Shown: positions 43,081 through 64,000, counted from the stretch's first letter. The stretch: 64,000 bases of DNA from a virus (IMGVR_UViG_3300050821_017216:55900-119899), one strand, 5' to 3'. Numbers and translations are program-made. The notes: generated by a model not told the origin, from the sequence alone.

Positions 43081-43364
43081 TGGGCAAGCGTAAGCGCTTC
43101 GCTCTGCGAGCTCTCCGTGCGGAACTAGGCAAAACGCAAACGGAGATCGCCTGCGCGGCGGCGATGGCTCAGGGTGAGGTCTCGAGACTCGAGTCGCGAC
43201 GCGACGTCAAGCTGTCGACCCTCGGTCGCTACGCTTCTGCGCTCGGTGGTGTGGTGGAGGTTGCCGTCGTCGTGGGGAAGCGTCGTTATCAGCTCGACCT
43301 AGACGTTACCCAGCCAAATACCGAGACGATCGCGGCCATGCGCGAAGCTGAAGGCTCTACCTAG
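43080..43364 (+). CDS. XRE-family helix-turn-helix protein
   Basis: 94 residues. LRAELGKTQTEIACAAAMAQ then GEVSRLESRRDVKLSTLGRY is an intact helix-turn-helix; the rest (GVVEVAVVVGKRRYQLDL) is a beta-rich dimer part seen in XRE antitoxins. Likely the antitoxin or repressor of the pair. Its end overlaps the convergent gene at 43361 by four bases. Confidence 0.8.
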   Translation: MGKRKRFALRALRAELGKTQTEIACAAAMAQGEVSRLESRRDVKLSTLGRYASALGGVVEVAVVVGKRRYQLDLDVTQPNTETIAAMREAEGST

Positions 43365-43651
43365 GCGACGACGGTCCCGACGACGCCGCCGACGACCGCG
43401 GTGGCGACGAGCGGGCGCCAGTTGCGCCGCAGGCGCTGACCGGCGCCGACGAGGACGCCGGACCCCTCCCCGAAGAGGGCCGTCGCGGCGACGGCCGCGA
43501 CCGCGCTCATGGCCGCGCCGCCGAGGAAGGCGCCCACCTTGCCGGTCGGGAAGAGGCTCCCGCCCATGGCGGGCTTGACGAAGGTGCTCTGCGGCGCGAT
43601 CCCGACGCCGAACCCAACGGCCGGTCGGCCGCCCAGTCGTAGGTGCTCCAT
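43361..43651 (-). CDS. GRP-tag membrane protein
   Basis: 96 residues. Tag LGGRPAVGFGVG at 6-17, then two hydrophobic stretches, GAFLGGAAMSAVAAVAATAL and PLVATAVVGGVVGTVVA, separated by RLRRNWR. Start supported by TACGCT seven bases upstream. No enzyme motif. I infer a virion membrane or assembly protein from the shared tag. Confidence 0.65.
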   Translation of the reverse strand: MEHLRLGGRPAVGFGVGIAPQSTFVKPAMGGSLFPTGKVGAFLGGAAMSAVAAVAATALFGEGSGVLVGAGQRLRRNWRPLVATAVVGGVVGTVVA

Positions 43652-43658
43652 GCCGGTC

Positions 43659-43687
43659 AGCGTACGACGCTTCAGTCCTGCCGTCTA
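43659..43687 (-). promoter_or_regulatory. Leaderless-type promoter of the 96-residue GRP protein
   Basis: TAGACG (43682-43687), 17 bases, TACGCT (43659-43664), seven bases to ATG 43651. The block up to the start (TGACCGGC-ATG) repeats that of the gene at 44254. Confidence 0.6.
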
Positions 43688-44254
43688 CGCGGCTCGACTG
43701 CGAGCGACTGCCACCGCGACACCACCGACGACGACAACGACCGCGCCGCCGATGGCGAGCAGCGTAGGCCACGGCGACGGGACAGGCACGGTCGAGTCTA
43801 CCGGCGGCGCCGTCGCCGGCACCTGCGAAGGGCGACCACCACCCGACACGGGGATCGACGAAGCAGACGTCGGCAGCGACGCCGCGAGTTTGGATGCTTG
43901 CTGGTAGAAGGTGATCATCTGACCGATGATCGCCTTCGCGGCGTCCACGTCCGCCTGGGTGGCAGACCCCGAACTGTTGACGGCCGCGAGCTTGCCGTTC
44001 TGCTGCCACGCCCACTGCGTCATCTTCATGATGTCTGGACTGCCGCCGGACATGGCGTCGATGGCGGGACCCACGGCACCGACGGCGGCGTTGCCCGCGG
44101 CCTGCAGACCGGCGACCGCCCCGCTCGGGTTGGTGATCCCGGGACCGCCGTACTGCGCGACCGCGGCCTGAAGAGCCGCGATCCCAGGACCGATGGCGTC
44201 GGGAGCTCCCAACCCGAACCAGGGAACCGGTCGGCCACCGAACTGGAGGTTCAT
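43685..44254 (-). CDS. GRP-tag protein with C-terminal membrane helix
   Basis: 189 residues from ATG 44254. Tag FGGRPVPWFGLG at 5-16 (an earlier in-frame ATG at 44263 lies inside the -10 box). Helical, Ala/Gly-rich ectodomain (PGIAALQAAVAQYGGPGITN, SSIPVSGGGRPSQVP), C-terminal helix LLAIGGAVVVVVGGVAVAVA and basic tail. Function unknown; probable virion membrane protein. Confidence 0.68.
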   Translation of the reverse strand: MNLQFGGRPVPWFGLGAPDAIGPGIAALQAAVAQYGGPGITNPSGAVAGLQAAGNAAVGAVGPAIDAMSGGSPDIMKMTQWAWQQNGKLAAVNSSGSATQADVDAAKAIIGQMITFYQQASKLAASLPTSASSIPVSGGGRPSQVPATAPPVDSTVPVPSPWPTLLAIGGAVVVVVGGVAVAVARSRAA

Positions 44255-44261
44255 GCCGGTC

Positions 44262-44290
44262 ATCGTACGGCGCTTCGGCTCTACCGTCTA
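44262..44290 (-). promoter_or_regulatory. Leaderless-type promoter of the 189-residue GRP protein
   Basis: TAGACG (44285-44290), 17 bases, TACGAT (44262-44267), seven bases to ATG 44254. Same layout and similar sequence to the promoter at 43659-43687, a likely duplicate. Confidence 0.65.
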
Positions 44291-44904: not shown

Positions 44905-45542
44905 CACCGCCGCCCCTTCCGCTTCTTGATCGCCCGCCAGATCTCGTCGAGCACCCAGCCGGTCACCGCGCCCGCGACGCTCATGACGACGGCCTCCTTC
45001 CATGGCGAGTGGCGCTCGTGCTCCTTAGGCGGATCCTTCGGAGCTTCCGCGCCGAGGCCCGCAGCCGCCTGCCCGCGCAGGAGCGCCGCCATCGCGCGCG
45101 CGGTGCGCTGCGTCGGCACGATCCCGCCGCCAGGCTCCGCGCAGCCGCCGCCCTCGACGAGCTCGTCCCCGCGCCCGGCGGCGATGAGCTGGTCCATCGC
45201 GGCGAGCTTCGCGCGGGCGTCCACCCAGGTCGGCGACCAGTGCGCGCCCACGCCGAGACTACCCTGCGTCTCGACGTCGCCGACCGCCTCGTATCGGACG
45301 GGCACCCCGTTGACCCGGTCGCCCACGATCATCCTGGCTATCGGGACGTGCTCGAGGCGCTGCACCTTGATGAGGATCGCGTCACCACCGCCCGGCGCGG
45401 ACGTGATCCCGACCCCTCGACCCCACGGCGGTCTGTCCAGGCGCACCCGTATTGAGTGCAGCGCCGCCTCGGCCTCGGACGGAGCGCCGAGCGCGAAGCC
45501 GACGACCGGTCGGCCGTTGCGGTGGACGGCGAAGCCCTGCAC
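44904..45542 (-). CDS. GRP-tag protein with C-terminal membrane segment
   Basis: 212 residues from GTG 45542; TAGGCT seven bases upstream fixes the start. Tag RNGRPVVGFALG at 8-19. Middle beta-rich (DAILIKVQRLEHVPIARMIV, then GVPVRYEAVGDVE), helical region, TM-like AVVMSVAGAVTGWVLDEIW, tail KKRKGRR. A beta domain with a possible protease-like or capsid-binding role; no catalytic motif found. Confidence 0.65.
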   Translation of the reverse strand: MQGFAVHRNGRPVVGFALGAPSEAEAALHSIRVRLDRPPWGRGVGITSAPGGGDAILIKVQRLEHVPIARMIVGDRVNGVPVRYEAVGDVETQGSLGVGAHWSPTWVDARAKLAAMDQLIAAGRGDELVEGGGCAEPGGGIVPTQRTARAMAALLRGQAAAGLGAEAPKDPPKEHERHSPWKEAVVMSVAGAVTGWVLDEIWRAIKKRKGRR

Positions 45543-45549
45543 GCGGCTC

Positions 45550-45555
45550 AGCCTA
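45550..45555 (-). promoter_or_regulatory. -10 box of the 212-residue GRP protein
   Basis: TAGGCT seven bases before GTG 45542 on the minus strand; no clear -35 element was found at 16-18 bases. Confidence 0.35.
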
Positions 45556-45565
45556 CCACGGGTCG

Positions 45566-45757
45566 CTACGGGTCGGCGCCCGCACCCTTGGTGATCAGCG
45601 CCGCCTTGGCCTGGTACGCGTCCACCGCCCGGCGCGCGCGCTCGCCCGCCATCCCCCGGACGCTCCCCGGTTCGCGTAGCTCGCGGAGGATCGAGCGGGG
45701 GTCGACGTCGTGCGCGGCGGAGAGGCGGCGGAGGGTCGCGGAGGGGATCGCTGGCAT
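45566..45757 (-). CDS. Small DNA-binding-like protein
   Basis: 63 residues from ATG 45757 (a longer frame to 45802 exists). MPAIPSATLRRLSAAHDVDP then RELREPGSVRGMAGERARRA suggests a helix-turn-helix-like start followed by a charged helix. Could be a small repressor. Not recognised as a family. Confidence 0.5.
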   Translation of the reverse strand: MPAIPSATLRRLSAAHDVDPRSILRELREPGSVRGMAGERARRAVDAYQAKAALITKGAGADP

Positions 45758-46551: not shown

Positions 46552-46943
46552 GCGTGAACTACGAACCCAGGCGCGGCCAGGCCGTCGGCCGCGTCGTCAT
46601 CAAGTCCACCCCCTCGACCATCGTGCGGCCGGACGAGACGAAGGGGACGACGAAGCTCGTCCTGCTCGACGCGGTCGGTCCTGACTTCGCGGAGAAGGGG
46701 CTGAAGGTCGGCGACGTGGTGCTGCCGTCGAAGGTCAGCAGCGTCGTGATGGAGGGCGGGGCCTCGTTTCGACCTGTCGTCAACGAGGCGGACGTCATCC
46801 TCGTCGTCCGCAACTGGACCAGCCTGAGCGAGTTCCGCGTGCAGACCGAGAGCGGCGCGGAGTACGTGGCGTTCGACGATCCGCGCGCCGCGCCGTCGCT
46901 CGGGTTCGTCAGCGAGTCACAACCCACGTCGGCGGCGGCGTGA
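46548..46943 (+). CDS. GroES-like co-chaperonin-fold protein
   Basis: 131 residues from GTG 46548 (GTGA overlap). GRVVIKSTPSTIVRPDETKG, LLDAVGPDFAEKGLKVGDVV and NEADVILVVRNW follow the GroES pattern of beta strands, the mobile-loop region and the vGpG-like turn, in a protein somewhat longer than the usual 95 residues. A phage co-chaperonin could help fold the coat protein. Family call moderate. Confidence 0.5.
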   Translation: MSVNYEPRRGQAVGRVVIKSTPSTIVRPDETKGTTKLVLLDAVGPDFAEKGLKVGDVVLPSKVSSVVMEGGASFRPVVNEADVILVVRNWTSLSEFRVQTESGAEYVAFDDPRAAPSLGFVSESQPTSAAA

Positions 46944-47626
46944 TGGGCAGGAGCGCGTACGACCCTGCCGCCTTCGCCCGCCTGCGCGGGTGCGGGTGCC
47001 ACGCGCCGGCGCAGGCGCGGGTCGTCGCTGAGCGGACGGCGCGCGCCGGTCGACGTGGCCGGCGCCTACTGCGCGACGACACGCACGAGTCGGCGCTCGC
47101 GGGCGCCGGTGCGGACCCGATCGTCCTCGGCGCCGGCAACGGGTCGAAGTGCCGGCCGTTCCTGACCGTGCAGAAGGACCAGGAGCGGTTCAGCGCGTGC
47201 AACGCGCTCGCCGACAAGATCGGCCCGCTCGACTCGTCGGAGCGGGCGTTCGAGCTGATCAGCGAGGCCATCGGCGACGAGGTCAACGAGGTCTTCGGGA
47301 TCGTCACGCTCGACCTGCACCTGCGCATGAAGTCGGTCGCGGAGACCGGTCGCGGCGAGCCGTCCGCCGTCATGGCGCCCATGGTCCCGACGCTGCAGGC
47401 GGCGCTCATCGATGGCGCGCACGCTGTAATTCTCTGGCACTGTCACCCCTCCGGGGTCGAGGCCGAGCCGAGCGACGCGGACAAGGAGACGACCGAGGCG
47501 TTCGCGGATGCGTTCGAGATCGTCGGTGTCGGTCTACTTGATCACATCATTTTGGGAGGGTCCAAAGAGAAGCCGTCGTACTTCAGCTTCCTCGACGCGG
47601 GACTGCTTCCGGAACTCGAGGACTAG
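46943..47626 (+). CDS. RadC-like JAMM-domain protein
   Basis: 227 residues from ATG 46943 (TGATG overlap). The C-terminal 130 residues are a full RadC/JAMM domain: VFGIVTLDLHLRMKSV, VILWHCHPSG, SDADKETTEAF, IVGVGLLDHIILG. The metal site HxHPSG-x(6)-SxxD is intact. RadC-like proteins occur widely in mobile elements, with suggested but unproven roles in repair or anti-restriction. The N-terminal 95 residues are basic and unmatched. Confidence 0.85.
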   Translation: MGRSAYDPAAFARLRGCGCHAPAQARVVAERTARAGRRGRRLLRDDTHESALAGAGADPIVLGAGNGSKCRPFLTVQKDQERFSACNALADKIGPLDSSERAFELISEAIGDEVNEVFGIVTLDLHLRMKSVAETGRGEPSAVMAPMVPTLQAALIDGAHAVILWHCHPSGVEAEPSDADKETTEAFADAFEIVGVGLLDHIILGGSKEKPSYFSFLDAGLLPELED

Positions 47627-50708: not shown

Positions 50709-51821
50709 GTGCGCACCTACGTCGTCAAGCCGAACGATTCGCCCGGGAGCATCGCGGCGCAGGATTCGATGGCTTCGTGCCCGAAATGTTCGATCGAACT
50801 GCCGCGCGTAAACGCGCACAAGCCTACGGTTAGGCATCCAAACGGCTACGTCACCTTCAAGGATCTGCGCGTCGGGGAGGTCCTGAATCTGCCCGACGAG
50901 TGGTTCGACCCGGCTCGCGAGGACCTGCCCGCGACGTACTACCGGATCCTCCCGTACGTAGACGGCGTCACGCCCGGATCGCTCGGCGACGCGCTCGGCG
51001 ACTTCCCCGAGCTCGACGCCGCCGTCGCCGCCGTCGCCCAGCTCGCGGCGCTCGACGACACCGCGTTCACGCGGGCCGTCGGCGACGCCGGCACGAAGGT
51101 CGACGCCTCCGTGGCGGAGGTGTACGGCTCCACGCAGTCGCCCGACGCCGCCGCCAAGGCGCGAGCCGTCAAGGACGCCACGCACTGGGCCTGGCTACGC
51201 AACCACGATCTCGCGGCCGCCGTCACGTCCGGCGACCGAGCCACCGTCACGCGCGCGCGGCTCGACATCCAGAACTCGCTCGCTACCGCGCTCGGCAACG
51301 CGCGCCTCGCGATCCTCGCGCACTACCCGTCAGCGGCCCCGGCGGCGGCCTCGAGTGACCTGCAAGCCGCCGCGCAGGCGGCCGTCGACGCGCTCTCGGC
51401 TGACCCGAACTACTGCACCTCGGTCACCCACCCGGGCACACCCGTCAACGCCGCGGTGCACCGGTTCAAGCTCGCGTGGAACGCATCGCAGACCCCGAAG
51501 GTCCCGATCGGCACGGGCACCTACGAGGTGGCGACCACGGTCGCGCTCGCGCAGGTCCACGGCAGCGCGCCGTCCGCGTGTGGCGCGAACCAGCGTCCGG
51601 TGCCCGCCCCGAAGCCTCCGCCGCCCCTGCCCGCAGGAAAGCAGGAGGAGACCATCACGCCGCCGAGTAAGAAGAGCGGGGCCGGTTGGTCGCTCGGCAC
51701 GGTCATCGCTGGCGTGGCGCTCGCGGGCGCGGCGGCCGGTGGAGTCGCCTACCTGGCGACGCGACCGAGCAAGCCCGCGCGCGGCCAGCCGGTCACGCGC
51801 CGAGAGGGGTTCGCGACGTGA
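50709..51821 (+). CDS. LysM-like protein with C-terminal membrane helix
   Basis: 370 residues from GTG 50709. TYVVKPNDSPGSIAAQDSMA then FKDLRVGEVLNLPDEWF at the N terminus has the LysM shape (YxVkxGDtl..., ...GxxLxiP), with a loop containing CPKCSIELPRVNAH inserted. A long helical part follows (SDLQAAAQAAVDALSADPNY), a Pro-rich hinge, then TVIAGVALAGAAAGGVAYLA and a basic tail. Would anchor in a membrane and bind peptidoglycan. TAGGCT lies six bases before the GTG. Confidence 0.65.
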   Translation: MRTYVVKPNDSPGSIAAQDSMASCPKCSIELPRVNAHKPTVRHPNGYVTFKDLRVGEVLNLPDEWFDPAREDLPATYYRILPYVDGVTPGSLGDALGDFPELDAAVAAVAQLAALDDTAFTRAVGDAGTKVDASVAEVYGSTQSPDAAAKARAVKDATHWAWLRNHDLAAAVTSGDRATVTRARLDIQNSLATALGNARLAILAHYPSAAPAAASSDLQAAAQAAVDALSADPNYCTSVTHPGTPVNAAVHRFKLAWNASQTPKVPIGTGTYEVATTVALAQVHGSAPSACGANQRPVPAPKPPPPLPAGKQEETITPPSKKSGAGWSLGTVIAGVALAGAAAGGVAYLATRPSKPARGQPVTRREGFAT

Positions 51822-52489
51822 AAGTGATCGACAGGCCCGTAGAGGGCGTGACGACGGACGCGCGTCCGCACCCGGCCGGGCGAGAGGGGTCGCTCATCTC
51901 GCTCAACGAGGTGGCCGAGCGATCGTGGAAGTCCCGGATGTCGCCGCGCCTGCGCGCGTGGACGACGCAGCGCCTCGCCGAGGCCGGCGTCTCGACGGGG
52001 ACGCGCCGGCAGAAGGCGCAGGCGATCCTCGACGCGTTCCGCGCGAAGGTGCCGTACATCGCCGACCCGGTGATGGGCGAGTTCATGGAGACGCCAGAGC
52101 AGACGCTCTGCTTGGACGAGGGCGGCCTCTGCTTCATCGGCACCGACTGCGACGGTGCGGCGATCACGCTCATCGCGTGCATGCTCTGCATCGGGATCCC
52201 CGCGATGGTCATCGGCTCGTCGCACAAGGCGCCCCTCGACGTGCCGACGCACGTCTTCATGGCGTTCCAGGACGAGCAGAGCGAGTGGGTCCGTATGGAC
52301 GGCACGACGAAGCACCCGGTCGGTCGCGTCTCGCCTCACCAGCGCGAGTGGTGGGTCGAGCCTGGCGCGGAAGCGAAGAGCCGGGGCGAGGGCGACTTCG
52401 TGGGCATGGCCGGTGGCGCCGCGGTCGGCGTCGGCGGGTCGGTCGCGCGCGCGAGCGCGCTCGATCTCCTCTACCCGTCGATCAAGTAA
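51818..52489 (+). CDS. Transglutaminase-like cysteine enzyme
   Basis: 223 residues from GTG 51818 (GTGA overlap with the LysM gene). GTDCDGAAITLIACMLCIGI, VPTHVFMAF and VRMDGTTKHPVG supply Cys, His and Asp of a transglutaminase-like (papain-fold) site. Such enzymes cut or cross-link proteins or peptidoglycan peptides. The LysM neighbour argues for a cell-wall or virion-maturation role. N terminus is not a signal peptide. Confidence 0.75.
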   Translation: MKVIDRPVEGVTTDARPHPAGREGSLISLNEVAERSWKSRMSPRLRAWTTQRLAEAGVSTGTRRQKAQAILDAFRAKVPYIADPVMGEFMETPEQTLCLDEGGLCFIGTDCDGAAITLIACMLCIGIPAMVIGSSHKAPLDVPTHVFMAFQDEQSEWVRMDGTTKHPVGRVSPHQREWWVEPGAEAKSRGEGDFVGMAGGAAVGVGGSVARASALDLLYPSIK

Positions 52490-52967: not shown

Positions 52968-55900
52968 ATGGGCGCGTACAAACACCGTCTCGCCGAACTC
53001 TCCGCCGCGCGCGAGCGCGTCGGGCGGCGCACTGCCGGTCACCGCGCGTCGGCCAGTCGACGCCCCGTCCTCGCGCCGCGCCGCGCGGGCGCTCCCGCTC
53101 GCCGCGAGGTCCGCATCGGCACGGTCATCCCGAGCCGGTACGTCCCGCCGCCGCCTCCCCCTCCTCCGCCTGACTACGACCCACCTCCCCCTTCCCTGGA
53201 CGTCGAGGACAGGCGCAAGCGGTCTGCCATGCAGACCCAGTCGCTGCTCTTCAGTCGCGCTGAGGGTTGGACCGTCGAGAAGGCGAAGGTGTGGGCCAAG
53301 AAGCACGGCCACAAGTCGAACAAGGTGGACGTCACCGACCAGTACGTCCGACTCAGACAACTCGACCCGAAAGGGTTTCAGGTCAAACGGACAGTTCCGT
53401 TTGGCAAGGGCATCCGCGCAGTAGTCGCTCGTGAGGAAACCATGGCAGCCAAAAAGAAGACGACCCGTCGCCCCGCAGCCAAGCGCACCGCCGCCCGGCG
53501 CAAGCCCGCTGCCAAGCCCAAGGCGCCCCCGAAGCGCCGCACCGCGCCGAAGAAGTCCAAGCCGGCGACGACGCGTGTCGTCTCCGCTCGCCGCCCCGCG
53601 CGCAAGGTGCGCGCGTCCGGCCGGCGCGCCACCGAGGCGCGCCGCCCGAAGAAGCGCGCCGTCCGCGCGCAGACCAAGCGCACCTACGCTCGCGCGAAGT
53701 CCAAGGTCGCCGAGTCGCGCCGCCCGAAGAAGCGCGCGGTCAGCCGCAAGCCGTCCGGCCAGGTGATGGCGAAGCGCAAGGTCCGCAGCACGCGCAGCAA
53801 GGGTCGCCGGACCGTGCAAGCGTGGCACGGCGACAGCGCCGGCCATAGCAAGGCGGCGAAGAAGGGCTGGAAGACCCGCAAGGCTGGCAAGCCCAGCAAG
53901 CCCAGCAAGGCCTCCCGCACGACCAAGACGGCCGCCGAGTCGCGCCGTCCGAAGCGCCGCACCACCCGCGAGACGCCGCGCGTCGCCGCGACGCGCCGCC
54001 CGACCAAGCGCACCTACGCTCGCGCGAAGTCCAAGGTCGCCGAGTCGCGCCGCCCGGCCAAGAAGCGCGGCAGCAGCCGCCGGGTCCGCGAGGCGACCCG
54101 CGTCGCTTCGCCCCGCTCGTACCGCAAGAGCCGCGTCGTCCGCGCGCCCAGCCTCGGCAGCATCGCCCGCACGGCGGGCCAGATGGGCGCCGAGATCGGG
54201 ACCGCGGTCGCCGGCTACCTCATCGCGGACGGGATCGACCGGTTCCTCGCGACCTACGACCCGTCGGGCACGGCCAAGCCGGCGAACAAGTTCACCTCGG
54301 ACGGCGCCGGCACGCTCGCCAACGCCCTCAACGTCGCGTCGCCGCCCGACATGTGGCGCTACGGCGCCCTCGCCGCGATGACGCTCGTGCCGCTCGGCGG
54401 ATCGCTCCTCGCCAAGAACCCCATGGTCCGAGCCGGAGTCGAGGGGATCGGGCTCGGCGCCGGCGTCAAGCTCTTCACGACGCTCTGGTCGCACGTGCTC
54501 ATGCCGATGCTCGTCGGCAAGGACACGAGCGTGCCCGCGCTCCGGAAGAGCTGGATCGCTCGCCTCTACCCCGCGGAGGTCTCCGCCTCGCTCAACATCA
54601 AGAGCGGCAAGGCCGACGTCTCGAGCGGCGGCGCCACCAGCACGGCCGGCACGCTCTCGGGCGGGTCCGACCGCGACGCCGGGCCCTTCGCGCTCGGCGA
54701 CCGCTTCGCTCGCGGGCGCGGCGACCGACACGACTGGGTCGCCCCGTCCCCGTGGCCGACGGCGGCGGTCCCCGCTGCCCCAGCATACGACCCCTCGATC
54801 GTCGACACGTCGATCCCGGCTCCCCCCGTGCAGCCGGCGTGGCCGGCGCGCTGGGGTGAGCACCACCGCTGGGGCCTGCGCGGCGTCGGCGACGCGGTGC
54901 AGGACATGACCGCGACCATCGCGGCCCAGACCGGCGTGCACCCCGCGCACGCGGTCAACGCGGCGATGCACGCGGCCGCCGAGCCGGCCGACCTCACCCA
55001 GGCGCTGCAGCGCGCGCTGCCGCACGTCAACCGCGACGTCCTGCGCGAGACCGCGCGGCACCTGCACCCGCACGTGGTCCGGATGCACCTGCACTCGCGC
55101 TACCCGCGCGAGCACGGTGAGTGGGAGTCCGAGCGGGCGGGCGAGGGCTTCCCCGCTCCCGACCACGACGCTCCGGAGCAGGAGTGGCGCGAGTGGCACG
55201 GCAAGCGTGCGGCCGCGGGTCTGCCTCAGGCCCCCCCTCCGCCCGAGCCGCCGCCGCTCACCCCCGCGACGCCCGTGCACCTGCGCACGCGCTTCGAGTG
55301 GCAGCCGAAGAGCGGTCGCGAGATCACCTCCGACCGCTACCCGACGACCCAGCAGGTCCTCGGGATCGGGGCACCCTACGCGAGCGGCAACCCTGGCCAA
55401 CCTGGCCTCGGCGAGGCGTTCTCCGACGCGGTGCAGACCGTGGCGGCCACCGTCCCGGACATGCCGCTCGAGAACGCCGTCAACGCGACCGCGTTCGCGG
55501 CGGCCGAGCCCTGCAACCTCGTGCGAGCGTTCGAGCGCGCGATGCCGCAGATCCGCCGCGAGCTCGCGCGCCAGTGCGCGGTGCGCGTCGACCCGTACAT
55601 CCGCACCATCCACGACCAGACGGGGGTCCCCCTGCCGGCCGCTCCGGGCGCGCCCGCTGCGCCGGCTCCGGGACTCCCCGCGGCGCCGCCGGCCGTCCCC
55701 GGCGCCCCGCTGTCGCTCGCGCCGCTCTTCAAGCCGTCCCCCCCGCCCCCGAGCTGGACCCGCAGCGAGGCGGAGTGGCACGTCCAGGAGAAGAGCGACT
55801 GGGATCGCTCTCACGCGAGCCCCGTCGTCGTCGCAGCGGCGACCCAGGCGGCTCAGGCCGCAGCCGCCCCGCACCCCGACGCCGACCACCCTGCGGTGCA

Positions 55901-56585
55901 GGCCGCGGTGCAGGCAGTCGCTGACCACGCCGCGCAGGTGGCGACCTCCGCACCGCCCGGAACGCCCCCGGCCGACGTCCACGCAGCCGCCACGCAGGCC
56001 GCGCAGTCGGTCGCCGCAGACGACCACCCCGCGGTCGCCAACCACCCCGCGGTGCAGGCAGCCATCCAGGCTGCAGCGACCGCAGCGACGGCGGCGGCTC
56101 CCGCCGCCAACGCCGCAGCCCCGGCACCTGCCGTGACCGCAGCCGCCACGCAGGCCGCGCAGTCGGCGGCCGCGCCCCACGCGGACGCCAACAAGCCCGC
56201 CGTCGCGGCTGCCGTCCAGGCAGCGGCGAACGGCGCCGCGCAGGCGGCGGCCGCCGCTCCCCCGGGGACGCCCACCGCGGTCGTCCAGCAAGCCGCCAAG
56301 GACGGTGCGCAGGCGGCAGCCGCCGCGCACGGTGCTGCCGCGGATCACCCCGCTGTCCAAGCCGCCGTCAAAGCTGCGGCGCCGGCAGCGGCGAACGCCG
56401 CCGCACCCGCGGCGGGGACCTCCGGTGTGGGTTTCCCGCCCCGGAACCTCCAGATCGGACCGACCAAGCTGCCGAAGCCTCAGGGCCCCCAGCCGCCGGA
56501 GTCCGACTGCGGCTGCCTGAACGACAGCCCGTACCTCGGCTTCGTCGGTGAGGAGGAGGAGACCGACCTCCTCTACACGAACTGA
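52968..56585 (+). CDS. Giant structural protein: histone-H1-like, membrane and Ala-repeat domains
   Basis: 1205 residues from ATG 52968. In order: basic start; Pro run (about 57-75); a phage domain (TQSLLFSRAEGWTVEKAKVW, LRQLDPKGF) at about 87-155; Lys/Arg/Ala/Pro H1-like repeats (160-395) with a repeated KRTYARAKSKVAESRRP; hydrophobic segments (AGQMGAEIGTAVAGYLIADG, GALAAMTLVPLGGSLLAKNP); two paralogous helical domains sharing AVNAxxxAAAEP; Ala-rich repeats (about 945-1145); an acidic C terminus. A second ATG at 53442 with GAGGAAA upstream could give a shorter 1047-residue product. Suggests a DNA-condensing, membrane-linked core protein; inference. Confidence 0.72.
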   Translation: MGAYKHRLAELSAARERVGRRTAGHRASASRRPVLAPRRAGAPARREVRIGTVIPSRYVPPPPPPPPPDYDPPPPSLDVEDRRKRSAMQTQSLLFSRAEGWTVEKAKVWAKKHGHKSNKVDVTDQYVRLRQLDPKGFQVKRTVPFGKGIRAVVAREETMAAKKKTTRRPAAKRTAARRKPAAKPKAPPKRRTAPKKSKPATTRVVSARRPARKVRASGRRATEARRPKKRAVRAQTKRTYARAKSKVAESRRPKKRAVSRKPSGQVMAKRKVRSTRSKGRRTVQAWHGDSAGHSKAAKKGWKTRKAGKPSKPSKASRTTKTAAESRRPKRRTTRETPRVAATRRPTKRTYARAKSKVAESRRPAKKRGSSRRVREATRVASPRSYRKSRVVRAPSLGSIARTAGQMGAEIGTAVAGYLIADGIDRFLATYDPSGTAKPANKFTSDGAGTLANALNVASPPDMWRYGALAAMTLVPLGGSLLAKNPMVRAGVEGIGLGAGVKLFTTLWSHVLMPMLVGKDTSVPALRKSWIARLYPAEVSASLNIKSGKADVSSGGATSTAGTLSGGSDRDAGPFALGDRFARGRGDRHDWVAPSPWPTAAVPAAPAYDPSIVDTSIPAPPVQPAWPARWGEHHRWGLRGVGDAVQDMTATIAAQTGVHPAHAVNAAMHAAAEPADLTQALQRALPHVNRDVLRETARHLHPHVVRMHLHSRYPREHGEWESERAGEGFPAPDHDAPEQEWREWHGKRAAAGLPQAPPPPEPPPLTPATPVHLRTRFEWQPKSGREITSDRYPTTQQVLGIGAPYASGNPGQPGLGEAFSDAVQTVAATVPDMPLENAVNATAFAAAEPCNLVRAFERAMPQIRRELARQCAVRVDPYIRTIHDQTGVPLPAAPGAPAAPAPGLPAAPPAVPGAPLSLAPLFKPSPPPPSWTRSEAEWHVQEKSDWDRSHASPVVVAAATQAAQAAAAPHPDADHPAVQAAVQAVADHAAQVATSAPPGTPPADVHAAATQAAQSVAADDHPAVANHPAVQAAIQAAATAATAAAPAANAAAPAPAVTAAATQAAQSAAAPHADANKPAVAAAVQAAANGAAQAAAAAPPGTPTAVVQQAAKDGAQAAAAAHGAAADHPAVQAAVKAAAPAAANAAAPAAGTSGVGFPPRNLQIGPTKLPKPQGPQPPESDCGCLNDSPYLGFVGEEEETDLLYTN
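53672..54056 (+). repeat. Exact 55-bp direct repeat in the H1-like region
   Basis: Bases 53672-53726 and 54002-54056 are identical and code TKRTYARAKSKVAESRRP. 330 bases apart, in frame. Identity at third positions implies recent duplication or gene conversion. Confidence 0.8.
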
Positions 56586-56700: not shown

Positions 56701-58020
56701 ATGGCTCGGAACCTTTTGACCAAGAAGTCGATCAAGTTCGGCGGCGAGAGCCGCGAGAAGGTGCAGCGCGTCCCGTTCGGCCTGGGCGCCCCGCCCGGCG
56801 ACGAGGCGGCCGCGCAGAAGTGCCTCCGGTGCGGGTTCGGCAACGTGCCCGTCGTCGAGGAGGTGGTCTGGACGATCCCGCTCCCGCTGACGCCCGAAGA
56901 GGCGCAGACGACGTTCGGCGACACCGTCAACCCGCTCTCGGGTTCCTCGGCAGTCCCCGGCGTCGCGAGCATCGACTCGACGTTCCTCATCAACGGCATC
57001 CTGCAGACGGACATCCTTGCCCAGGGCATCGGCGTCCACGTCTTCTGCGAGCCGATGACGTTCTCCACGATCGGCAACGCGTTCGTCGCGCCGGACGTTC
57101 AGGGATCGACCACCGCGAGCCCCGACGTGGTCACCTTTGCCGACGTGAACAACGGAGCACTCGGCGGGGACATGACGTTCGAGGCTCCCGCCGTCTTCGA
57201 GTGGGGCGCTGCGACCTGGCGCGCGGGCTGGAACTTCATCAACGCCTACCAGTTCCAGTGGAAGACATCCCAGCGCGAGCTCGTGCTCAACGAGCTGGCG
57301 GCCGACATCTCGTACTTCGGGTCCTTCGCGGACGCCGAGGCGAGCGGCACGAGCGAGCTGCCGATCGCCGAGTTCGTCGCGCTCGTCAACGCGACGTACC
57401 GCGCGAAAGACTCCGCCACGATCTTCGTCGGGGTCACCCACCGCAGGGTGGGTAGCGTCACCACCGCCGGCGGTGGTGGTGGTGGGCTCCCGCCCGCAAC
57501 CGGCAACGTCGGCATCTTCCACCCGACGCGCGACTTCGACCTCGCGCCCGTCACCTGGGGCGGTCTCCGGTGGCAGGGGTACGGATGCCGCGGGCAGATG
57601 TACCGGCCCGTCGAGAGCCCGTGCTTCCTCGAGCGCGGTATCCCGATCGGGATGATCTTCATCGCGCAGGACGCCGTGCACCAGGCGCAGATGATCGAGT
57701 CGCTCACGATCGACAACGAGCCGTTCGGCATCAACGTGCTGCCGGACATCAACATGAGCCAGTTGAGCTCGGTGGGGACTCCCGGAGTCATCGCGGCGGG
57801 TGCCGTCGGCAGCAGCGCCGCCAACCTCGTCATGCTCGAGCAGACGCTCGACTCGACGCCGGCGTACGCCACGACGGTCGTCAACACCAACCGCCAGGTC
57901 TTCAAGGGCGGCATCCTCAAGCTCGGGATCAAGATCAAGGGCTGGGAGATGCCGGGCGGCTGGAAGGCGTACTGCTCGGAGAAGGGCATCCGCGGCTTGC
58001 CCAAGCACAACGAGGGCTGA
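56701..58020 (+). CDS. Putative major coat protein
   Basis: 439 residues from ATG 56701; a purine-rich AAAGAGAGAAAG lies upstream. N-terminal basic tag KKSIKFGGESREKVQRVPF then GLGAPPGDE, a CLRCG pair, then an all-beta body (VVEEVVWTIPLPLTPEEAQT, FEWGAATWRAGWNFINAYQF, GGILKLGIKIKGWEMPGGW). It is followed by a strong hairpin terminator, typical of a highly expressed coat gene. Size and beta pattern would fit a double jelly-roll protein, but an HK97 fold is not excluded from sequence alone. No family hit is claimed. Confidence 0.62.
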   Translation: MARNLLTKKSIKFGGESREKVQRVPFGLGAPPGDEAAAQKCLRCGFGNVPVVEEVVWTIPLPLTPEEAQTTFGDTVNPLSGSSAVPGVASIDSTFLINGILQTDILAQGIGVHVFCEPMTFSTIGNAFVAPDVQGSTTASPDVVTFADVNNGALGGDMTFEAPAVFEWGAATWRAGWNFINAYQFQWKTSQRELVLNELAADISYFGSFADAEASGTSELPIAEFVALVNATYRAKDSATIFVGVTHRRVGSVTTAGGGGGGLPPATGNVGIFHPTRDFDLAPVTWGGLRWQGYGCRGQMYRPVESPCFLERGIPIGMIFIAQDAVHQAQMIESLTIDNEPFGINVLPDINMSQLSSVGTPGVIAAGAVGSSAANLVMLEQTLDSTPAYATTVVNTNRQVFKGGILKLGIKIKGWEMPGGWKAYCSEKGIRGLPKHNEG

Positions 58021-58115: not shown

Positions 58116-58715
58116 ATGCAGCCGAAAAGCGAGAACGTAAGCGACCTGGCCATCTGGGCCCCGAAGATCGCCTACGCGATGGTGGTGGGCGTCCCGCGCG
58201 TCCCGTTCGTCGTCGACATCCCGATCCAGTTCACCTCGAGCGCCGTCGACGCGCCCGCGATCGTCGCGAGCTTCGACAACAACCTCACGCAGGACACGAT
58301 CATCGAGAAGATCGCGTTCACGCTCTTCCAGCAGAACACGTTCCCCGGCAGCCCGTTCCAGAGCCTGTACTTCAGCCAGCTGAAGAACCAGACCGGCGTC
58401 GGCGTCAAGGTCGACGTCTACGGAGCTCCCAGGTACAGCGTGCAGGATACACACATCGACCTCGCGAACTTCGCCGACGTCATGGCGGTCACGTGGCCGA
58501 ACGGGTGGCTTTTGCCAAAACAAAGTAACGTGAAATTGTCGGCGATCCTGTTCCAGACGCCGGTGAGCGTCCCGTTCAACGTCAACGTCACATTTTTGGG
58601 GTGGAGCTCGCTAGATCCCGACATTGACGGACTCTCCGATGATGACGCGCGCTGCCGGCTCCGCAAACTCGGCTTCGACGTCCCGGACCTGTCGATCCTA
58701 CTGGCCAGGCCGTGA
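58116..58715 (+). CDS. Beta-rich structural protein, coat-module candidate
   Basis: 199 residues from ATG 58116, with GGAGG eight bases upstream. VRNVLAxx-type motifs are absent; visible are PFVVDIPIQFTSSAVDAPAI, FPGSPFQSLYFSQLKNQTGV and PVSVPFNVNVTFLGW, a jelly-roll-like strand pattern. Follows the coat gene and its terminator. Could be a second coat, penton or cement protein. Confidence 0.6.
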   Translation: MQPKSENVSDLAIWAPKIAYAMVVGVPRVPFVVDIPIQFTSSAVDAPAIVASFDNNLTQDTIIEKIAFTLFQQNTFPGSPFQSLYFSQLKNQTGVGVKVDVYGAPRYSVQDTHIDLANFADVMAVTWPNGWLLPKQSNVKLSAILFQTPVSVPFNVNVTFLGWSSLDPDIDGLSDDDARCRLRKLGFDVPDLSILLARP

Positions 58716-58774
58716 CCACTCGGTTCACCGCCTTCAACGTCACCACCAGCGAAGTCGCGCGGGCGGTGGCGTGA
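58712..58774 (+). CDS. 20-residue minigene linking two structural genes
   Basis: GTG 58712 overlaps the previous stop (GTGA); TGA 58772-58774 overlaps the next ATG. VTTRFTAFNVTTSEVARAVA. Its exact placement between two coupled genes suggests at least a re-initiation relay for ribosomes; a functional peptide is uncertain. Confidence 0.35.
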   Translation: MTTRFTAFNVTTSEVARAVA

Positions 58775-59679
58775 TGCGCTGGAACAACGAGGCGAAGCTC
58801 ATCAGGCTGGCCAGCTACCCCGGCGGCGTCGCCGAGGGCGTCCGCACGCGCTTCTACCCAGGTCGCCACGAGATCGTCCCCGCCACGATCGACCCTTCCG
58901 TCGCGCTCATCGGCAGCGACCCCTTCCTCGGCACGTCGGTCGGTACGGGCCTGCTCGTCCCATCGACACCGACCGCGGCGCTCGTCCCCGCCGGAGCGTC
59001 CCCGTCCGAGTACCGCTACCTCTGCCTGCTCGCCCGCGAGCAGTTCGCCTCGGGCGAGACCGGCGTGCGGCTCACCGGCATCCGGCAGTACGCGGAGCTC
59101 GTCGCGACCGTCTCTGGCGTGGGGACGTTCCGCAAGGAGATCGTGAGCCCGCTCTGGCACCCGCCGGACGGGAACATCAGCTGGCACGTCGTCATCATCG
59201 CGAAAAACTTCATCCTGACCCGAAACGTCCAGAACGCGGACACCCTCATGTTCCGCGACAGCAAGGGACCGGCGCTGCTCTACGAGACCTTCGCAGGTCC
59301 GCAGTTCGCGCCGACCGCGTACGTGCCGCCGAACGGCGGCCGCCCGTGGGGCAAGCCCCTCGGCAGCAGCCTCGGCAACATGCACGACATGCGCTACCGC
59401 TGGCGCACCGGCTACCTCGAGCAGATGCTCGACATCCCGGTGCCGGTGCCGTGTGACGTCGCCATCGTCGCGAGCGTCCGGCAGAACGATCCGGCGACCA
59501 ACCCGGCCGCGAGCGGCCTGTCGGCCAACCAGTTCGCGGCGCTCGGCCCTGAAGACCAGTTCCTGACGGCGTACCCGGGCGCCGCCGGCGTGGGCGCGCA
59601 GTACGGTCGGATTGCCGCGTCGCTCGTCTTCAGCGAGACTTCCAGGGATCCCGTGCTGGTCGAGGAGGATGCATCATGA
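58774..59679 (+). CDS. Beta-rich structural protein
   Basis: 301 residues from ATG 58774. WNNEAKLIRLASYPGGVAEG, RTRFYPGRHEIVPATIDPSV, then IRQYAELVATVSGVGTFRKE and NISWHVVIIAKNFILTRNVQ give a regular beta pattern with few helices; YRYLCLLAREQFASGETGVR is helical. No recognised family. Third beta-rich protein of the coat module; a penton or minor capsid role is a guess. Confidence 0.6.
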   Translation: MRWNNEAKLIRLASYPGGVAEGVRTRFYPGRHEIVPATIDPSVALIGSDPFLGTSVGTGLLVPSTPTAALVPAGASPSEYRYLCLLAREQFASGETGVRLTGIRQYAELVATVSGVGTFRKEIVSPLWHPPDGNISWHVVIIAKNFILTRNVQNADTLMFRDSKGPALLYETFAGPQFAPTAYVPPNGGRPWGKPLGSSLGNMHDMRYRWRTGYLEQMLDIPVPVPCDVAIVASVRQNDPATNPAASGLSANQFAALGPEDQFLTAYPGAAGVGAQYGRIAASLVFSETSRDPVLVEEDAS

Positions 59680-60536
59680 CAACCGGAGTCGGAGGGTGCG
59701 GTGGAGGGTGCGGGAACGCCGCGTGGGCGGTGGTCCCCGCTCGGCGCGTCCTCGATCGGTTGTCGCCGACCCCGGCGCAGGCCGCCGACATCGCGCACCG
59801 CGACGGGACCTACCAAGACTGGGTCACCGACGTACCGGTCCAGGGCCCCACGGACCCCGGGATCCGCGCGGCTGGTTGCTGGTGGAAGGAGAACGTCCTC
59901 GACAAGGTCACCGACCGGCAGGGCGCTGTCGTGCCGCGGTGGACTCAGTCCTCCACGCTCTGCATGGGGGGTCGACCCGTGAGGACCGGCGTCGCCGGTC
60001 TCGGCGAGACGATCCAGATGCACCTCGGCCCGAACCCGACGCTGACGCCGAAACCTGCGGCAGGATCGCCGCCCAACGGCGCCGCGAGCGCGCCACCTGG
60101 CGTCTGGTCCAAGCTCGCCGCCGCCGAGTCGAGCTGGGTGATGACCACCCTCACGCAGTTGAACGCGCTCATCCTCAAGGCCGGCAACAAGCCCTGCGCG
60201 ACCTGGCCGGCGGACCCGACCAAGGCTGTCCCAGCGGCGGTCGCGTGCTTCCAGGGATGGTTCAACGCAAACGGCAAGCCGGCCGAGCCGCTGCGCACCG
60301 ACGGCTCGCTCGACGAGGCGAGCCTCTGCGCGCTCGTGGCGGTCACCAAGCAGCACGCGGGCGACTTCACGGTCCCGTACCCCGGATCGCCGAACTGCGG
60401 CGGGGGTCTCTCCACCCTCGCGAAGGTCGGCATCGGTGTCGGCGCCCTGGTGGTGGTCGGTGGGACGATCGCGGCTGTCGCCGCGCACGGCAAGAAGAAG
60501 ACGCGGACGCCGCCTGCGGCGAGCCCTCAGGGCTGA
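59676..60536 (+). CDS. GRP-tag protein with peptidoglycan-binding-like domain and membrane helix
   Basis: 286 residues from ATG 59676 (ATGA overlap). Cys-rich start (VGGCGGGCGNAAW), a GRP motif LCMGGRPVRTGVAGLG at about 95-110, then TLTQLNALILKAGNKPCATW and ACFQGWFNANGKPAEPLRTD, which resemble a PG_binding_1 fold, and LSTLAKVGIGVGALVVVGGT with a basic tail. Probably a virion membrane protein acting at entry. Confidence 0.6.
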   Translation: MTTGVGGCGGGCGNAAWAVVPARRVLDRLSPTPAQAADIAHRDGTYQDWVTDVPVQGPTDPGIRAAGCWWKENVLDKVTDRQGAVVPRWTQSSTLCMGGRPVRTGVAGLGETIQMHLGPNPTLTPKPAAGSPPNGAASAPPGVWSKLAAAESSWVMTTLTQLNALILKAGNKPCATWPADPTKAVPAAVACFQGWFNANGKPAEPLRTDGSLDEASLCALVAVTKQHAGDFTVPYPGSPNCGGGLSTLAKVGIGVGALVVVGGTIAAVAAHGKKKTRTPPAASPQG

Positions 60537-60549: not shown

Positions 60550-61485
60550 ATGTACGTCAGATCCTGGGAGGATGTCGCCCCGCCGGGCGTAGGCGCCGCC
60601 GACAACAGCGCGCCCGCACCCGTCAAGATCTCGACGGTCATCGCGGCCATCCGTCAGGCGGCCAAGGAGAAAGGGTTCGACCTGTCCGACCAGCTGCTCT
60701 CGCTGATGATCGGGCAGATCCGCGGCGCGGAGGGGGCCTACCCTGGCTCCGGGAGCACGTTCGCGGGCACCAACAACATCGGTGCTGCCCAGGTCACCAA
60801 GGGGCTCGTGAGCGCGAAGAAGGGTCGCCCCGGTTGGGGCGCGTTCGCGCACAAGGACACGACCCCGACCGCCAGTGGACCAAGCCCGTACATCGGGTGG
60901 TACTGGATCGCCCCGAGCCCACTCGAGGCCGCGCGCCACTGGTTTCAGGATAACTGGTGGGGGCCGGCGCTCGCGAAAGCCAACCCGCAGACCGCGACGG
61001 ACTACGCGGGCGTCGTCTACAAGGGACACTACTTCGACGGCAACCACCCGGACCCGGATCACGATCCCACGAGCGACAACGGGAAGCTGAACGTCGCCGA
61101 GTACGCGGCCGGGATCCAGCGCGGTGTGGCGTCGGCCGCGGAGTTGGCCGCGCCAGTCGATGACCCCGCGAAGGTGACCGTCGACCCAGCCAAGTTCAAG
61201 CCACCGGCGGCCCGGCAGATCACCGAGGACCTGTTCACCAAAGCCAAGAGCGGTGGTGCCGGATCCGCGTGGTCCTACATCTTGCCGAGCTCGTGGAGCG
61301 ATCTCCTCGCCTCGAACGGTGTCGTGTGGTTCGACGGGTCCATACCTGGATCGAGTCTCGCGCGTCTTGTCCGGAGACCGATCGTGGTCGCGGCGGTCGC
61401 GGCAGTAGTCGTCGTGATCGGTGGCGGTGTCTACTTGGTTACGAAACCAGTGCGGCGGCATGCGCCGGCCCCGGCCCGAGCATGA
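60550..61485 (+). CDS. Muramidase/glucosaminidase-like membrane protein
   Basis: 311 residues from ATG 60550. DQLLSLMIGQIRGAEGAYPG, FAGTNNIGAAQ and IGWYWIAPSPLEAARHW resemble lysozyme-like or glucosaminidase domains in which the NN-G-Q turn follows the catalytic Glu (GAEGAYPG offers one). C-terminal helix PIVVAAVAAVVVVIGGGVYL and basic tail, so membrane-anchored. In internal-membrane phages such enzymes cut peptidoglycan at entry. Confidence 0.6.
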   Translation: MYVRSWEDVAPPGVGAADNSAPAPVKISTVIAAIRQAAKEKGFDLSDQLLSLMIGQIRGAEGAYPGSGSTFAGTNNIGAAQVTKGLVSAKKGRPGWGAFAHKDTTPTASGPSPYIGWYWIAPSPLEAARHWFQDNWWGPALAKANPQTATDYAGVVYKGHYFDGNHPDPDHDPTSDNGKLNVAEYAAGIQRGVASAAELAAPVDDPAKVTVDPAKFKPPAARQITEDLFTKAKSGGAGSAWSYILPSSWSDLLASNGVVWFDGSIPGSSLARLVRRPIVVAAVAAVVVVIGGGVYLVTKPVRRHAPAPARA

Positions 61486-61817
61486 GACTCCGAGCGGAGT
61501 CCATCTCGCTCGCCGGTCGCCCGACGGCTGGTTTCGGGCTGGGCCAGCCGGGTGCGTGCCCGGTGTGCCCCGCGGCGCTCCCGTCCGGATCCAGCGCGGC
61601 TGATCTCCTAGACGGCGACTGGAGCGCGCTGCCCGCTGTCGCGGGCTACACCCTCGCGCGCGCCGCGCTCGTCGGGTCGGGCCTCCTCGTCGCGGGCGAG
61701 CGCACGCACGTGGTCAGGAACGCGGTCGCCGGCGCGCTCGCGATCGAGGTCTTCGTGCTCGCGTGGGCCGCGTGGAAGAAAAGGATCCGTGACAGAGTAG
61801 GAGCGACACAGCCATGA
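61482..61817 (+). CDS. GRP-tag membrane protein
   Basis: 111 residues from ATG 61482 (ATGA overlap). Tag LAGRPTAGFGLG at 10-21, CPVC pair, then one or two helices (ALPAVAGYTLARAALVGSGL, GALAIEVFVLAWAAW) and KKRIRDR. Function unknown. Confidence 0.62.
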   Translation: MRLRAESISLAGRPTAGFGLGQPGACPVCPAALPSGSSAADLLDGDWSALPAVAGYTLARAALVGSGLLVAGERTHVVRNAVAGALAIEVFVLAWAAWKKRIRDRVGATQP

Positions 61818-62500
61818 ACACCGTATCCAGGGGCGGCCGCCCGGTCGCGTTCGGCGTGGGTGACCTGTTCCCGATCCCAATCGACAGGCGTCCCGCGCCG
61901 CCGCCCGCCCAGGTCAGGCGCCCCGCGCCGCCGCCTCCCCAGGTCGGCAGGCGCCCTGCGCCCCCGCCGCCCCAGGTGAGGCGCCCCACGCCACCGTCGC
62001 CCCGCGCGGTGGCCCACGAGGCAGCCGCCGCGCGTGCGTGGCGGCCTGAGTGGGGTGGACGCCCCGCGGGCTTCGGCGCCACCCACTGGCGCCCCGAGTG
62101 GGGCAGCCAACCCGCTTGGTTCGGCGCTCGCCAGTGGAGGCGTGAGTGGGGCGCGCAACCTCCGTGGTGGGAGGCGAGCGTCGCCGTGCAGCAGACCGCG
62201 CCGCCCGACGATCCGCCGGACGACTCCCAGCCGCCCGCGCCCTCGGACGGCGCGACCCAGGCTCCGCCGCCAGCGAGCGGCGCACCGGCTACGCCGACGG
62301 ACTCCACGGCAGCGGCAGCGGCAGCGGCATCGGCGACGACGCCGACGCCGACCACGGGCCCGGCGAGCGCGGGGGCGCCCGCGGCCGGCGGTAGCAAGTC
62401 CCTCTCTACCCTCGCGAAGGTCGGCATCGGCGCCGGCGTCGTGGTGGTCGTCGGTGGCACCGTCGCGGTCATCCTCCAGGCGGCGAGCAGCAAGAAGTAG
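61814..62500 (+). CDS. GRP-tag protein, Pro/Trp-rich, with C-terminal membrane helix
   Basis: 228 residues from ATG 61814. Tag RGGRPVAFGVGDLF at 6-19, then four RRPAPPPPQV-type Pro repeats, two WRPEWG repeats (one with GGRPAGFG), a Pro/Ala linker, and C-terminal LSTLAKVGIGAGVVVVVGGT, nearly the same helix as in the 59676 gene. Probably virion membrane protein. Confidence 0.65.
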   Translation: MNTVSRGGRPVAFGVGDLFPIPIDRRPAPPPAQVRRPAPPPPQVGRRPAPPPPQVRRPTPPSPRAVAHEAAAARAWRPEWGGRPAGFGATHWRPEWGSQPAWFGARQWRREWGAQPPWWEASVAVQQTAPPDDPPDDSQPPAPSDGATQAPPPASGAPATPTDSTAAAAAAASATTPTPTTGPASAGAPAAGGSKSLSTLAKVGIGAGVVVVVGGTVAVILQAASSKK

Positions 62501-62513
62501 GAGCACCACCCCC

Positions 62514-64000
62514 ATGAGCAAGATCTTCAGGAACGGGCGCCCCGCCACGTTCGGTGTGGGCGAGAACTTCTGCCCGACCCTCCCGTACAACTGCCCGCCG
62601 CGCCCGTGGGAGCCGGATCCCGGTCCCGAGACCTCGATCCGCGACCGCCTCGGCACCGGCCGACCGCAGTCGAGCGGCGTGGGTGTGTCTGGGCTCGCGT
62701 GCTGGCCGCGCGAGTGGAAGCCGGACGAGGGGCAGACGCTCGGCATCGGCGGGCGCCCGCGGCGTGGCTCGCAGTTCGGCGTCGGCGGATCGCCGTACGC
62801 GGACTCGCTCGCCGCCGTCGGCCTGACGCCGGACAACCCGGACCCGATGTACGCGCAGCTCATGGACTTCATCCAGAACCCAGAAAAGTTCAAGAACGCG
62901 GACCCGTGCTGGCCTGGCGCGAAGGACGACAAGACGTGGTGGGAGGACCCGAAGGGCACGATCGCGCTTCAGTGGCCGTTCGGCGGCGGCAAGTGGCTCG
63001 ACAACGCGCCGAAGACCGACGCGCAGATGCGCGCCGTGTTCAAGATCCCGGACGGCACTGCGACCAAGGACTTCCTCTACCAGCTCTACGGGGTCACGAG
63101 CCCTCTCACGACGTTCCGCATCGACGCCAAGGGTCACAAGTGCAAGAGCGGCGGGTTCGACCTCGGTAGCGCGCTCGGGAAAGCCTGGGACGCCGTGAAG
63201 ACGGGGATCGGTGACGTGCGCGCGGTCGCCGACGCTCTCCACATCCCAGGCGCAAACCTGACCGCAGCGCTCCTGACCGGTGGCGACCTCGGCGAGGCGC
63301 TCAAGCAGGACGTCAACGGCTTCGTCGCCGCCGGCCAGCTCGCGGGGGCCATCGTCAGTGGCAACCCGTCCGGGATCGCTGCCGCCGCCACGTCGAGTAT
63401 CACCCAGGCCGCGCAGAAGTTCGGGATCAGTATCCCCTCCGGCGCGGTGCAGGCGGCCGCGCAGGTGGCGCAGACGGTGAGCGCGGCCGGCGGCGACCCG
63501 TCGCAGATCCTGACCCAGGCCGCGCAGCAGGCTGGCTCCACGACCCCGGCGGCCGCGATCCAGTCCGCCGTCAGCGCGATCAAGTCCGACGCCAGCCCGG
63601 ACCAGATCCTGAGCCAGCTCCCCGGAATGCCGGCGAGCGCGGTCCAGGCCGCGATCGTGGCGGCGCGCGCCGGCGGTGACCCGAGCAAGCTCGCGAACCT
63701 CGTCGCGACGACGGCGCTCGGCGACAGCTACAAGGACGCCTGGAACGTCGCGACCAACTTCGGCAAGATCAAGACGGACATGCCGGCGCCGGTGGGTCTG
63801 TCGTACGCGCCCGGGGCCAAGCCGGCCAGCTCCGCCAACCCGCACCCGATCCAGGTGCACCTAGGCGGCAAGTCGCTGACCGTGAAGGGTGGCGGCGCGT
63901 ACGGCCCCTACCCCGACAGCGGCAAGGTGTCGGCGGCACCAGCCGCCGCCGGGACGACCGCGGGCGTCGGCAACCTCGATCGCGGTGGCGGTGGGGGTCA
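62514..64000 (+). CDS. GRP-tag large Ala-rich protein (3' end outside window)
   Basis: At least 495 residues from ATG 62514, open to the window edge. Tag FRNGRPATFGVG at 5-16, Pro/Cys segment, two more GRP copies (LGTGRPQSSGVG, GIGGRPRRGSQFGVG), a beta/alpha part (TIALQWPFGGGKWLDNAPKT), and an Ala-rich helical repeat region (SSITQAAQKFGISIPSGAVQ) like the tail of the 1205-residue protein. Ends in a Gly/Ser-rich stretch. Structural role inferred from tag and place. Confidence 0.7.
   Translation, partial: MSKIFRNGRPATFGVGENFCPTLPYNCPPRPWEPDPGPETSIRDRLGTGRPQSSGVGVSGLACWPREWKPDEGQTLGIGGRPRRGSQFGVGGSPYADSLAAVGLTPDNPDPMYAQLMDFIQNPEKFKNADPCWPGAKDDKTWWEDPKGTIALQWPFGGGKWLDNAPKTDAQMRAVFKIPDGTATKDFLYQLYGVTSPLTTFRIDAKGHKCKSGGFDLGSALGKAWDAVKTGIGDVRAVADALHIPGANLTAALLTGGDLGEALKQDVNGFVAAGQLAGAIVSGNPSGIAAAATSSITQAAQKFGISIPSGAVQAAAQVAQTVSAAGGDPSQILTQAAQQAGSTTPAAAIQSAVSAIKSDASPDQILSQLPGMPASAVQAAIVAARAGGDPSKLANLVATTALGDSYKDAWNVATNFGKIKTDMPAPVGLSYAPGAKPASSANPHPIQVHLGGKSLTVKGGGAYGPYPDSGKVSAAPAAAGTTAGVGNLDRGGGGG

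Follow-up and report, generated by a model that had tools for sequence, protein, structure and literature searches.

A short peptide tag on candidate structural proteins of an uncultured virus, a possible signal for capsid targeting and maturation

The DNA considered here is a window of 64,000 nucleotides, comprising bases 55900-119899 of the 119,899-base IMG/VR virus record IMGVR_UViG_3300050821_017216, with positions counted from its first letter. A module at 43361-64000 encodes otherwise different proteins that carry the same short peptide tag. The tag is real, and its core is also present on the probable major capsid protein and in internal linkers of other module proteins. An earlier sequence-only reading of this DNA had recognised an N-terminal tag on membrane proteins, which holds, but the scope it gave was too narrow. 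Our leading, still tentative, explanation is that the tag acts as a capsid-targeting and maturation signal, T4-like in its logic and processed by a transglutaminase-fold cysteine enzyme encoded in the same module.

All eight stretches named by that reading, seven N-terminal and one internal, are present at their positions and strands. Copies of the tag and of its core are given below; orthologues are those of related records, denoted by L numbers, and protein lengths are in amino acids (aa).

43601..43633, minus strand: tag GGRPAVGFGVG, residues 7-17 of the 96-aa protein at 43361-43651; the L070 orthologue has MEHLRFGGRPAPGFGVG
44207..44239, minus strand: tag GGRPVPWFGLG, residues 9-19 of the 192-aa protein at 43685-44263, with a C-terminal membrane helix
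44854..44886, minus strand: tag GGRPVQGFALG, residues 7-17 of the 207-aa protein at 44281-44904, with a C-terminal membrane helix; L070 and L025 orthologues tagged
45486..45518, minus strand: tag NGRPVVGFALG, residues 9-19 of the 212-aa protein at 44904-45542; the L070 orthologue has MEHVVRNGRSVAGFGVG
54675..54698, plus strand: DAGPFALG, internal tag-like stretch within the 1205-aa protein of the next line
52968..56585, plus strand: 1205-aa protein with basic repeats followed by a membrane segment, a possible scaffold or hub
56758..56787, plus strand: KVQRVPFGLG, tag core, residues 20-29 of the capsid candidate
59967..60005, plus strand: internal copy GGRPVRTGVAGLG, residues 98-110 of the protein at 59676-60536, between two conserved domains; orthologues have, for example, SFGGRGALGFALNAAGDPEVW
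60586..60594, plus strand: GVG (PPGVG-A), a possible further site, residues 13-15 of the protein at 60550-61485, with a C-terminal membrane helix; orthologues have PPGVG-A (L005) and PPGLG-N (L008)
61512..61544, plus strand: tag AGRPTAGFGLG, residues 11-21 of the 111-aa protein at 61482-61817, with a membrane helix; tagged orthologues in L005-L008
61832..61861, plus strand: tag GGRPVAFGVG, residues 7-16 of the protein at 61814-62500
62532..62561, plus strand: tag NGRPATFGVG, residues 7-16 of the protein starting at 62514, which continues past the record end; tagged orthologues in L005 and L008
62748..62786, plus strand: internal second copy GGRPRRGSQFGVG at residue 79 of the same protein, absent from the earlier list

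Genes were called with a codon model, and the tagged genes were supported by coding score. The gene at 44904-45542 begins with GTG at 45542, a longer open reading frame from ATG being unsupported by coding score. The gene at 61814 overlaps the stop of its neighbour and was trimmed by the caller to 62186, yet neither its open frame nor its tag is disrupted, and the L005 orthologue has VSNAVFRNGRSISFGVG; its product also contains additional internal tag-like WGxRPAxFGA repeats.

Chance occurrence was assessed by shuffling within proteins, with composition preserved, for the module and for the remaining record. The pattern F[GA]-hydrophobic-G was observed nine times in the module versus 0.9 expected, and seven times versus 3.8 expected in the rest of the record. 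A tag profile of 15 ungapped columns was made from 17 sequences, all from relatives and none from the window, and run against every called protein of the record, with 30 shuffled proteomes as control. It picked exactly five window proteins (34.8, 29.5, 26.7, 25.7 and 21.5 bits), each with its match at residues 4-8; the runner-up protein scored 7.6 bits and the top of the shuffled proteomes 15.6 bits. Two window tags with a spacer one residue shorter were missed by the ungapped profile. The strict motif and the profile were used throughout, and a loose regular expression was dropped, since its 34 N-terminal matches did not separate from the 33-40 of two controls. A random motif is rejected by the profile and shuffle tests, and the tag is conserved in related records; neither of the two outcomes that the sequence-only reading had named as refuting it was observed. 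Codons for identical residues agreed between copies in 50% of cases versus 45% expected from codon usage; codon identity is near expectation and therefore points to selection on the peptide and to conservation at the protein level. The same divergence rejects a recent DNA duplication or a DNA-level element.

Of nine tagged proteins, six have a C-terminal membrane helix, versus six of about 138 untagged ones, the 61814 protein being counted by its C-terminus as called at 62186-62500. This corrects the earlier account of the tagged bodies: the capsid candidate and the in-window part of the 62514 protein are without such a helix, and that of the 44904 protein is borderline. It should be added that two different tagged proteins, 59676-60536 and 61814-62500 (both plus strand), have a common C-terminal membrane module, LSTLAKVGIGxGxxVVVGGT.

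The tag core extends to the following protein.

56701..58020, plus strand: probable major capsid protein, 439 aa

Its probable identity as the major capsid protein is deduced from position, conservation and predicted beta content; the AlphaFold2 model was poor (predicted local distance difference test, pLDDT, 53) with Foldseek structure matches that were not significant, and PDB sequence searches with the capsid and enzyme profiles gave nothing significant. The protein carries the core as RVPFGLG-APP. Among its homologues, 29 of 30 have the motif and 28 have Pro two or three residues downstream. Across 25 aligned sequences R23, F26, G27 and G29 are each at least 90% conserved, and the N-terminal flanks vary in length and sequence. 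The core is retained on capsid candidates across 30-87% identity, the distant ones keeping the core alone, as in MRVNPARMIGLG-AGP (L032) and GRLIGLG-QSP (L036). In the tag profile the capsid candidate scored 6.0 bits at residue 16, which is not significant alone; the case for its tag rests on its own conservation.

Homologues of the 56701 protein were found in 30 IMG/VR records, with three added in the next search round and L090 added at 30% identity; the records of relatives span 5 to 127 kb. Neither the capsid candidate nor the transglutaminase-fold enzyme nor the first third of the 1205-aa protein had a match among 50,697 phage records, and a known phage is rejected on these grounds. One scan of GTDB genomes gave no relative of the capsid candidate, by which an origin from a host genome or prophage is likewise rejected.

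Comparison of the relatives indicates that G-hydrophobic-G-x-x-P is the deep core of the motif and the GRP half a local dialect of close relatives. In a far clade (L034, L036, L037, L038) G-hydrophobic-G-Q was observed 25 times versus 2.6 expected, both on the capsid and on small membrane proteins, whereas the near clade had one versus 4.5 expected. The leader of far-clade capsid candidates ends in IGLG-Q in three of four and in VGLG-A in the fourth; at positions -2 and +3 of far-clade sites Pro is preferred. L090 uses AGLG-S or AGLG-D, a spelling borne by its capsid candidate and by two small membrane proteins. Permuted Gly/hydrophobic patterns showed an excess of merely 1.1-1.3-fold in the far clade. 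A spelling that shifts jointly on unrelated proteins of one genome requires a common recogniser acting in trans.

The candidate for this role is encoded two genes upstream of the capsid candidate.

51818..52489, plus strand: transglutaminase-fold cysteine enzyme, candidate maturation protease, triad C111, H145, D161

The enzyme was found in 31 family records, and C111, H145 and D161, a Cys-His-Asp triad, are invariant in 17 sequences. The window enzyme matches Pfam Transglut_core at 23.4 bits versus a cut-off of 23; of 17 relatives, 14 reach E 0.01 or better with this profile. Searches of Pfam, NCBIfam and PDB sequences gave no LapG model or chain, Transglut_core being the sole match, and proteolytic activity is a prediction. 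The catalytic domain ends in GD[FY][IV]G[VI]G-x-x-P, the same consensus as the tag, in six of six mid and far genomes, and in GLG in L090. A tag motif at this position fits self-trimming, as in T4 gp21 and SPN3US gp245 (PMC9026906, PMC10052503). In L013 (6316-7947) and L024 (6271-7914) an intein with Hint and LAGLIDADG matches lies directly before the catalytic Cys, and enzyme genes of the same length are present in L023 (6205-7857) and L030 (6222-7865). Inteins favour active sites of essential proteins. Apart from this gene, a second Transglut_core match occurs elsewhere in four related genomes (G002:97403, G003:55239, G013:81877, G017:15243), and a gene judged transposase-like by eye (L008, 4198-5397, plus strand) is inserted beside the enzyme gene.

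According to the explanation we tentatively favour, the tag would be read in trans and would bring the probable capsid protein, tail-anchored membrane proteins and others into the virus particle. The upstream element (SIS-GGRP in this genome) would do the targeting, the core (F-G-L-G or its clade-specific spelling, then x-x-Pro) would be cut by the 51818-52489 enzyme, and the enzyme may trim itself at the same motif. Its support includes, besides the findings above, the internal copies of the 59676 family, which lie between two conserved domains, and an L070 protein that has the tag and the C-terminal membrane tail of the window 44281 protein with a different middle. Observed are the motif with its conservation, its place on the capsid candidate, the spelling common to unrelated proteins of a genome and the universal enzyme with a complete triad; we infer that the module has a structural role, that this enzyme does the recognising, that cutting takes place and which bond is cut. 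Several observations weigh against such processing: there is no known cleavage product and no isolated virion; some leaders are very short (MSGLG-Q, MAQFGVG-P); some copies (GFALD, GFGLE) have D, E or N in place of the last Gly; about 30 sites per far-clade genome, some of them seven residues apart, exceed the need of simple propeptides; and the near-clade motif spans about 15 residues, a considerable length if it served as a protease site only. Moreover, near-clade enzymes end the domain in GDFVGMSG, an imperfect site, the window enzyme barely exceeds the Pfam cut-off, and its link to the tag consists of neighbourhood and shared motif.

It is quite possible, therefore, that the motif is a docking peptide which is not cut at all. 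It would bind a fixed groove on a scaffold, on a membrane hub such as the 1205-aa protein or on another capsid protein, and so anchor its carriers. The very short leaders, a last position that admits D, E or N and the repeated copies keep this a close rival; it would also suit a motif that exceeds the usual length of protease sites, has conserved residues flanking its GxG core (GGRP upstream, Pro downstream), occurs in tandem with a preferred spacing of seven and is not strict in its last Gly. However, docking leaves the tag of the capsid candidate itself unexplained unless the receptor is a third protein, and it gives no reason for a motif at the point where the catalytic domain of the universal cysteine enzyme ends.

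It is improbable that the motif has no recognition function and is a leftover of domain shuffling among paralogues or a plain Pro/Gly-rich linker. Modules do recombine in this virus family, as in the L070 protein mentioned above, and many sites lie in Pro-rich linkers. However, the residues are kept though their codons diverged, the bodies are mostly unrelated, the permuted far-clade patterns are hardly enriched, and the tag persists on the capsid candidate over the whole range of identity given above. A cross-linking site, where a true transglutaminase would staple the particle by joining motif-adjacent glutamines to lysines, is quite unlikely; the fold family of the enzyme and the frequent GxG-Q of far-clade sites would agree with it, but in the near clade, window included, no conserved glutamine follows the motif, and the conserved element is Gly-hydrophobic-Gly.

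A different cutter would be the product of the following gene.

46943..47626, plus strand: RadC/JAB-domain protein with HxHPSG...D, a second and weaker protease candidate, just upstream of the module

Its motif is intact, its gene is close and some JAMM peptidases cut after glycine, but we consider it a most unlikely substitute for the transglutaminase-fold enzyme, given that RadC-type proteins are usually tied to DNA metabolism and that none was found in the available sequence, with limited upstream coverage, of L034, L036, L037 and L038, the genomes richest in the motif.

As to the class of explanation, a signal for sorting, packaging or cleavage carried by virion candidates, as put forward earlier, is still the best one, with the amendment that the capsid candidate and internal linkers are included and that GRP is local. 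No family match was found for the signal, but it has a precedent in kind in the T4 capsid targeting sequences (PMC9026906). There, in the propeptides of IPI, IPII and IPIII, one N-terminal peptide targets the protein and is then removed by the self-trimming protease gp21 (PMC9026906). The window tags are similar in being one short N-terminal peptide on otherwise different proteins, whose role in the particle is presumed. The T4 site is L/I-x-E and its protease a serine protease, whereas here we have a GxG core, a cysteine enzyme and internal copies too; no sequence relation was seen. In giant phages with the prohead proteases SPN3US gp245 and phiKZ gp175, many head proteins including the capsid share a processing motif, propeptides go down to 20-24 residues and the protease trims itself (PMC10052503). 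That motif ends in Glu and belongs to tailed phages with HK97-type heads, unlike the G-hydrophobic-G core of the present viruses, which had no match to portal, HK97-capsid or tested terminase profiles. In adenovirus, African swine fever virus and vaccinia (I7L), maturation relies on cysteine proteases that act on many virion proteins and cut behind motifs of small residues such as Gly-Gly-x and Ala-Gly-x (PMC1198262). These enzymes are of SUMO-protease type, from eukaryotic viruses, with sites (M/L/I)xGx-G, GG-x or AG-x; here the match is to Transglut_core, a hydrophobic residue stands between the glycines, and the sites are not GG-x or AG-x. Finally, LapG is a transglutaminase-fold protease with a C-H-D triad that cuts LapA between small residues, A|AGP, with Pro three residues after the cut (PMC3032545). 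It has in common with the present enzyme the fold, the triad and small residues with Pro at the site, which here is predicted; it differs in serving periplasmic adhesin processing under cyclic di-GMP control. Our literature searches found no description of a transglutaminase-fold protease of capsid or particle maturation.

More speculatively, we may be dealing with a lineage not recognised before, made up of large viruses (records up to 127 kb) that are probably tailless and membrane-containing and the particles of which would be matured by a transglutaminase-fold cysteine protease through a G-hydrophobic-G-x-x-P code on many structural proteins including the capsid. Such a code would co-evolve with the enzyme and be independent of the serine prohead proteases of tailed phages and of the cysteine proteases used by adenovirus, African swine fever virus and poxviruses. 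A shared targeting and maturation code would let a virus recruit new particle proteins by adding a short tag; it would also be a direct route to listing likely particle proteins of a virus family without a cultured member, and it points to the transglutaminase fold as a candidate class of particle-maturation enzymes.

Two further module genes are conserved alongside the capsid candidate.

58116..58715, plus strand: 199-aa predicted beta-sandwich, probable minor capsid protein
58774..59679, plus strand: 301-aa core protein conserved alongside the capsid candidate

Together with the enzyme, the 1205-aa protein and the 56701 protein they form a gene set kept throughout where contigs reach. The 58116 model was good (pLDDT 79); the best Foldseek match had E 0.0035, and the weak matches, no more than suggestive of a capsid fold, were rich in viral jelly-roll and phage cement proteins. 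The HK97-capsid, portal and TerL_ATPase profiles (PF05065, PF04860, PF03354) had no match in 16 records, nor had Terminase_6N (PF03237) in 15, with positive controls detected in both cases; only these four profiles were tested. A tailless, membrane-containing particle is a reasonable guess. The HerA-like ATPase of the window matches a PHROG labelled terminase large subunit, and a HerA/FtsK-like ATPase as universal packaging gene was rejected, as only six of 20 records have one.

A second, different N-terminal tag, M(S/G)xxIGRGRxAxETYPxxP, is present on five fibre-like proteins, all on the minus strand (25331-26842, 26899-27978, 35558-35980, 36646-37374 and 39040-40269). It also occurs in L015 (15029, 15823), L025 (12594, 18183) and L031 (15286), and many capsid candidates start with a SIIGRK stretch resembling it. 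The window further encodes a UvrD-like helicase (435-2903, plus strand) with an intein domain match (Pfam Intein_splicing), and its record a TnpB/Cas12f-like protein (L004, 7940-10012, minus strand; Pfam Cas12f1-like_TNB). In a 124,600-base record (L007/L070) the genes of the capsid candidate and of the enzyme are close to opposite ends, an arrangement that would suit a circular or permuted genome.

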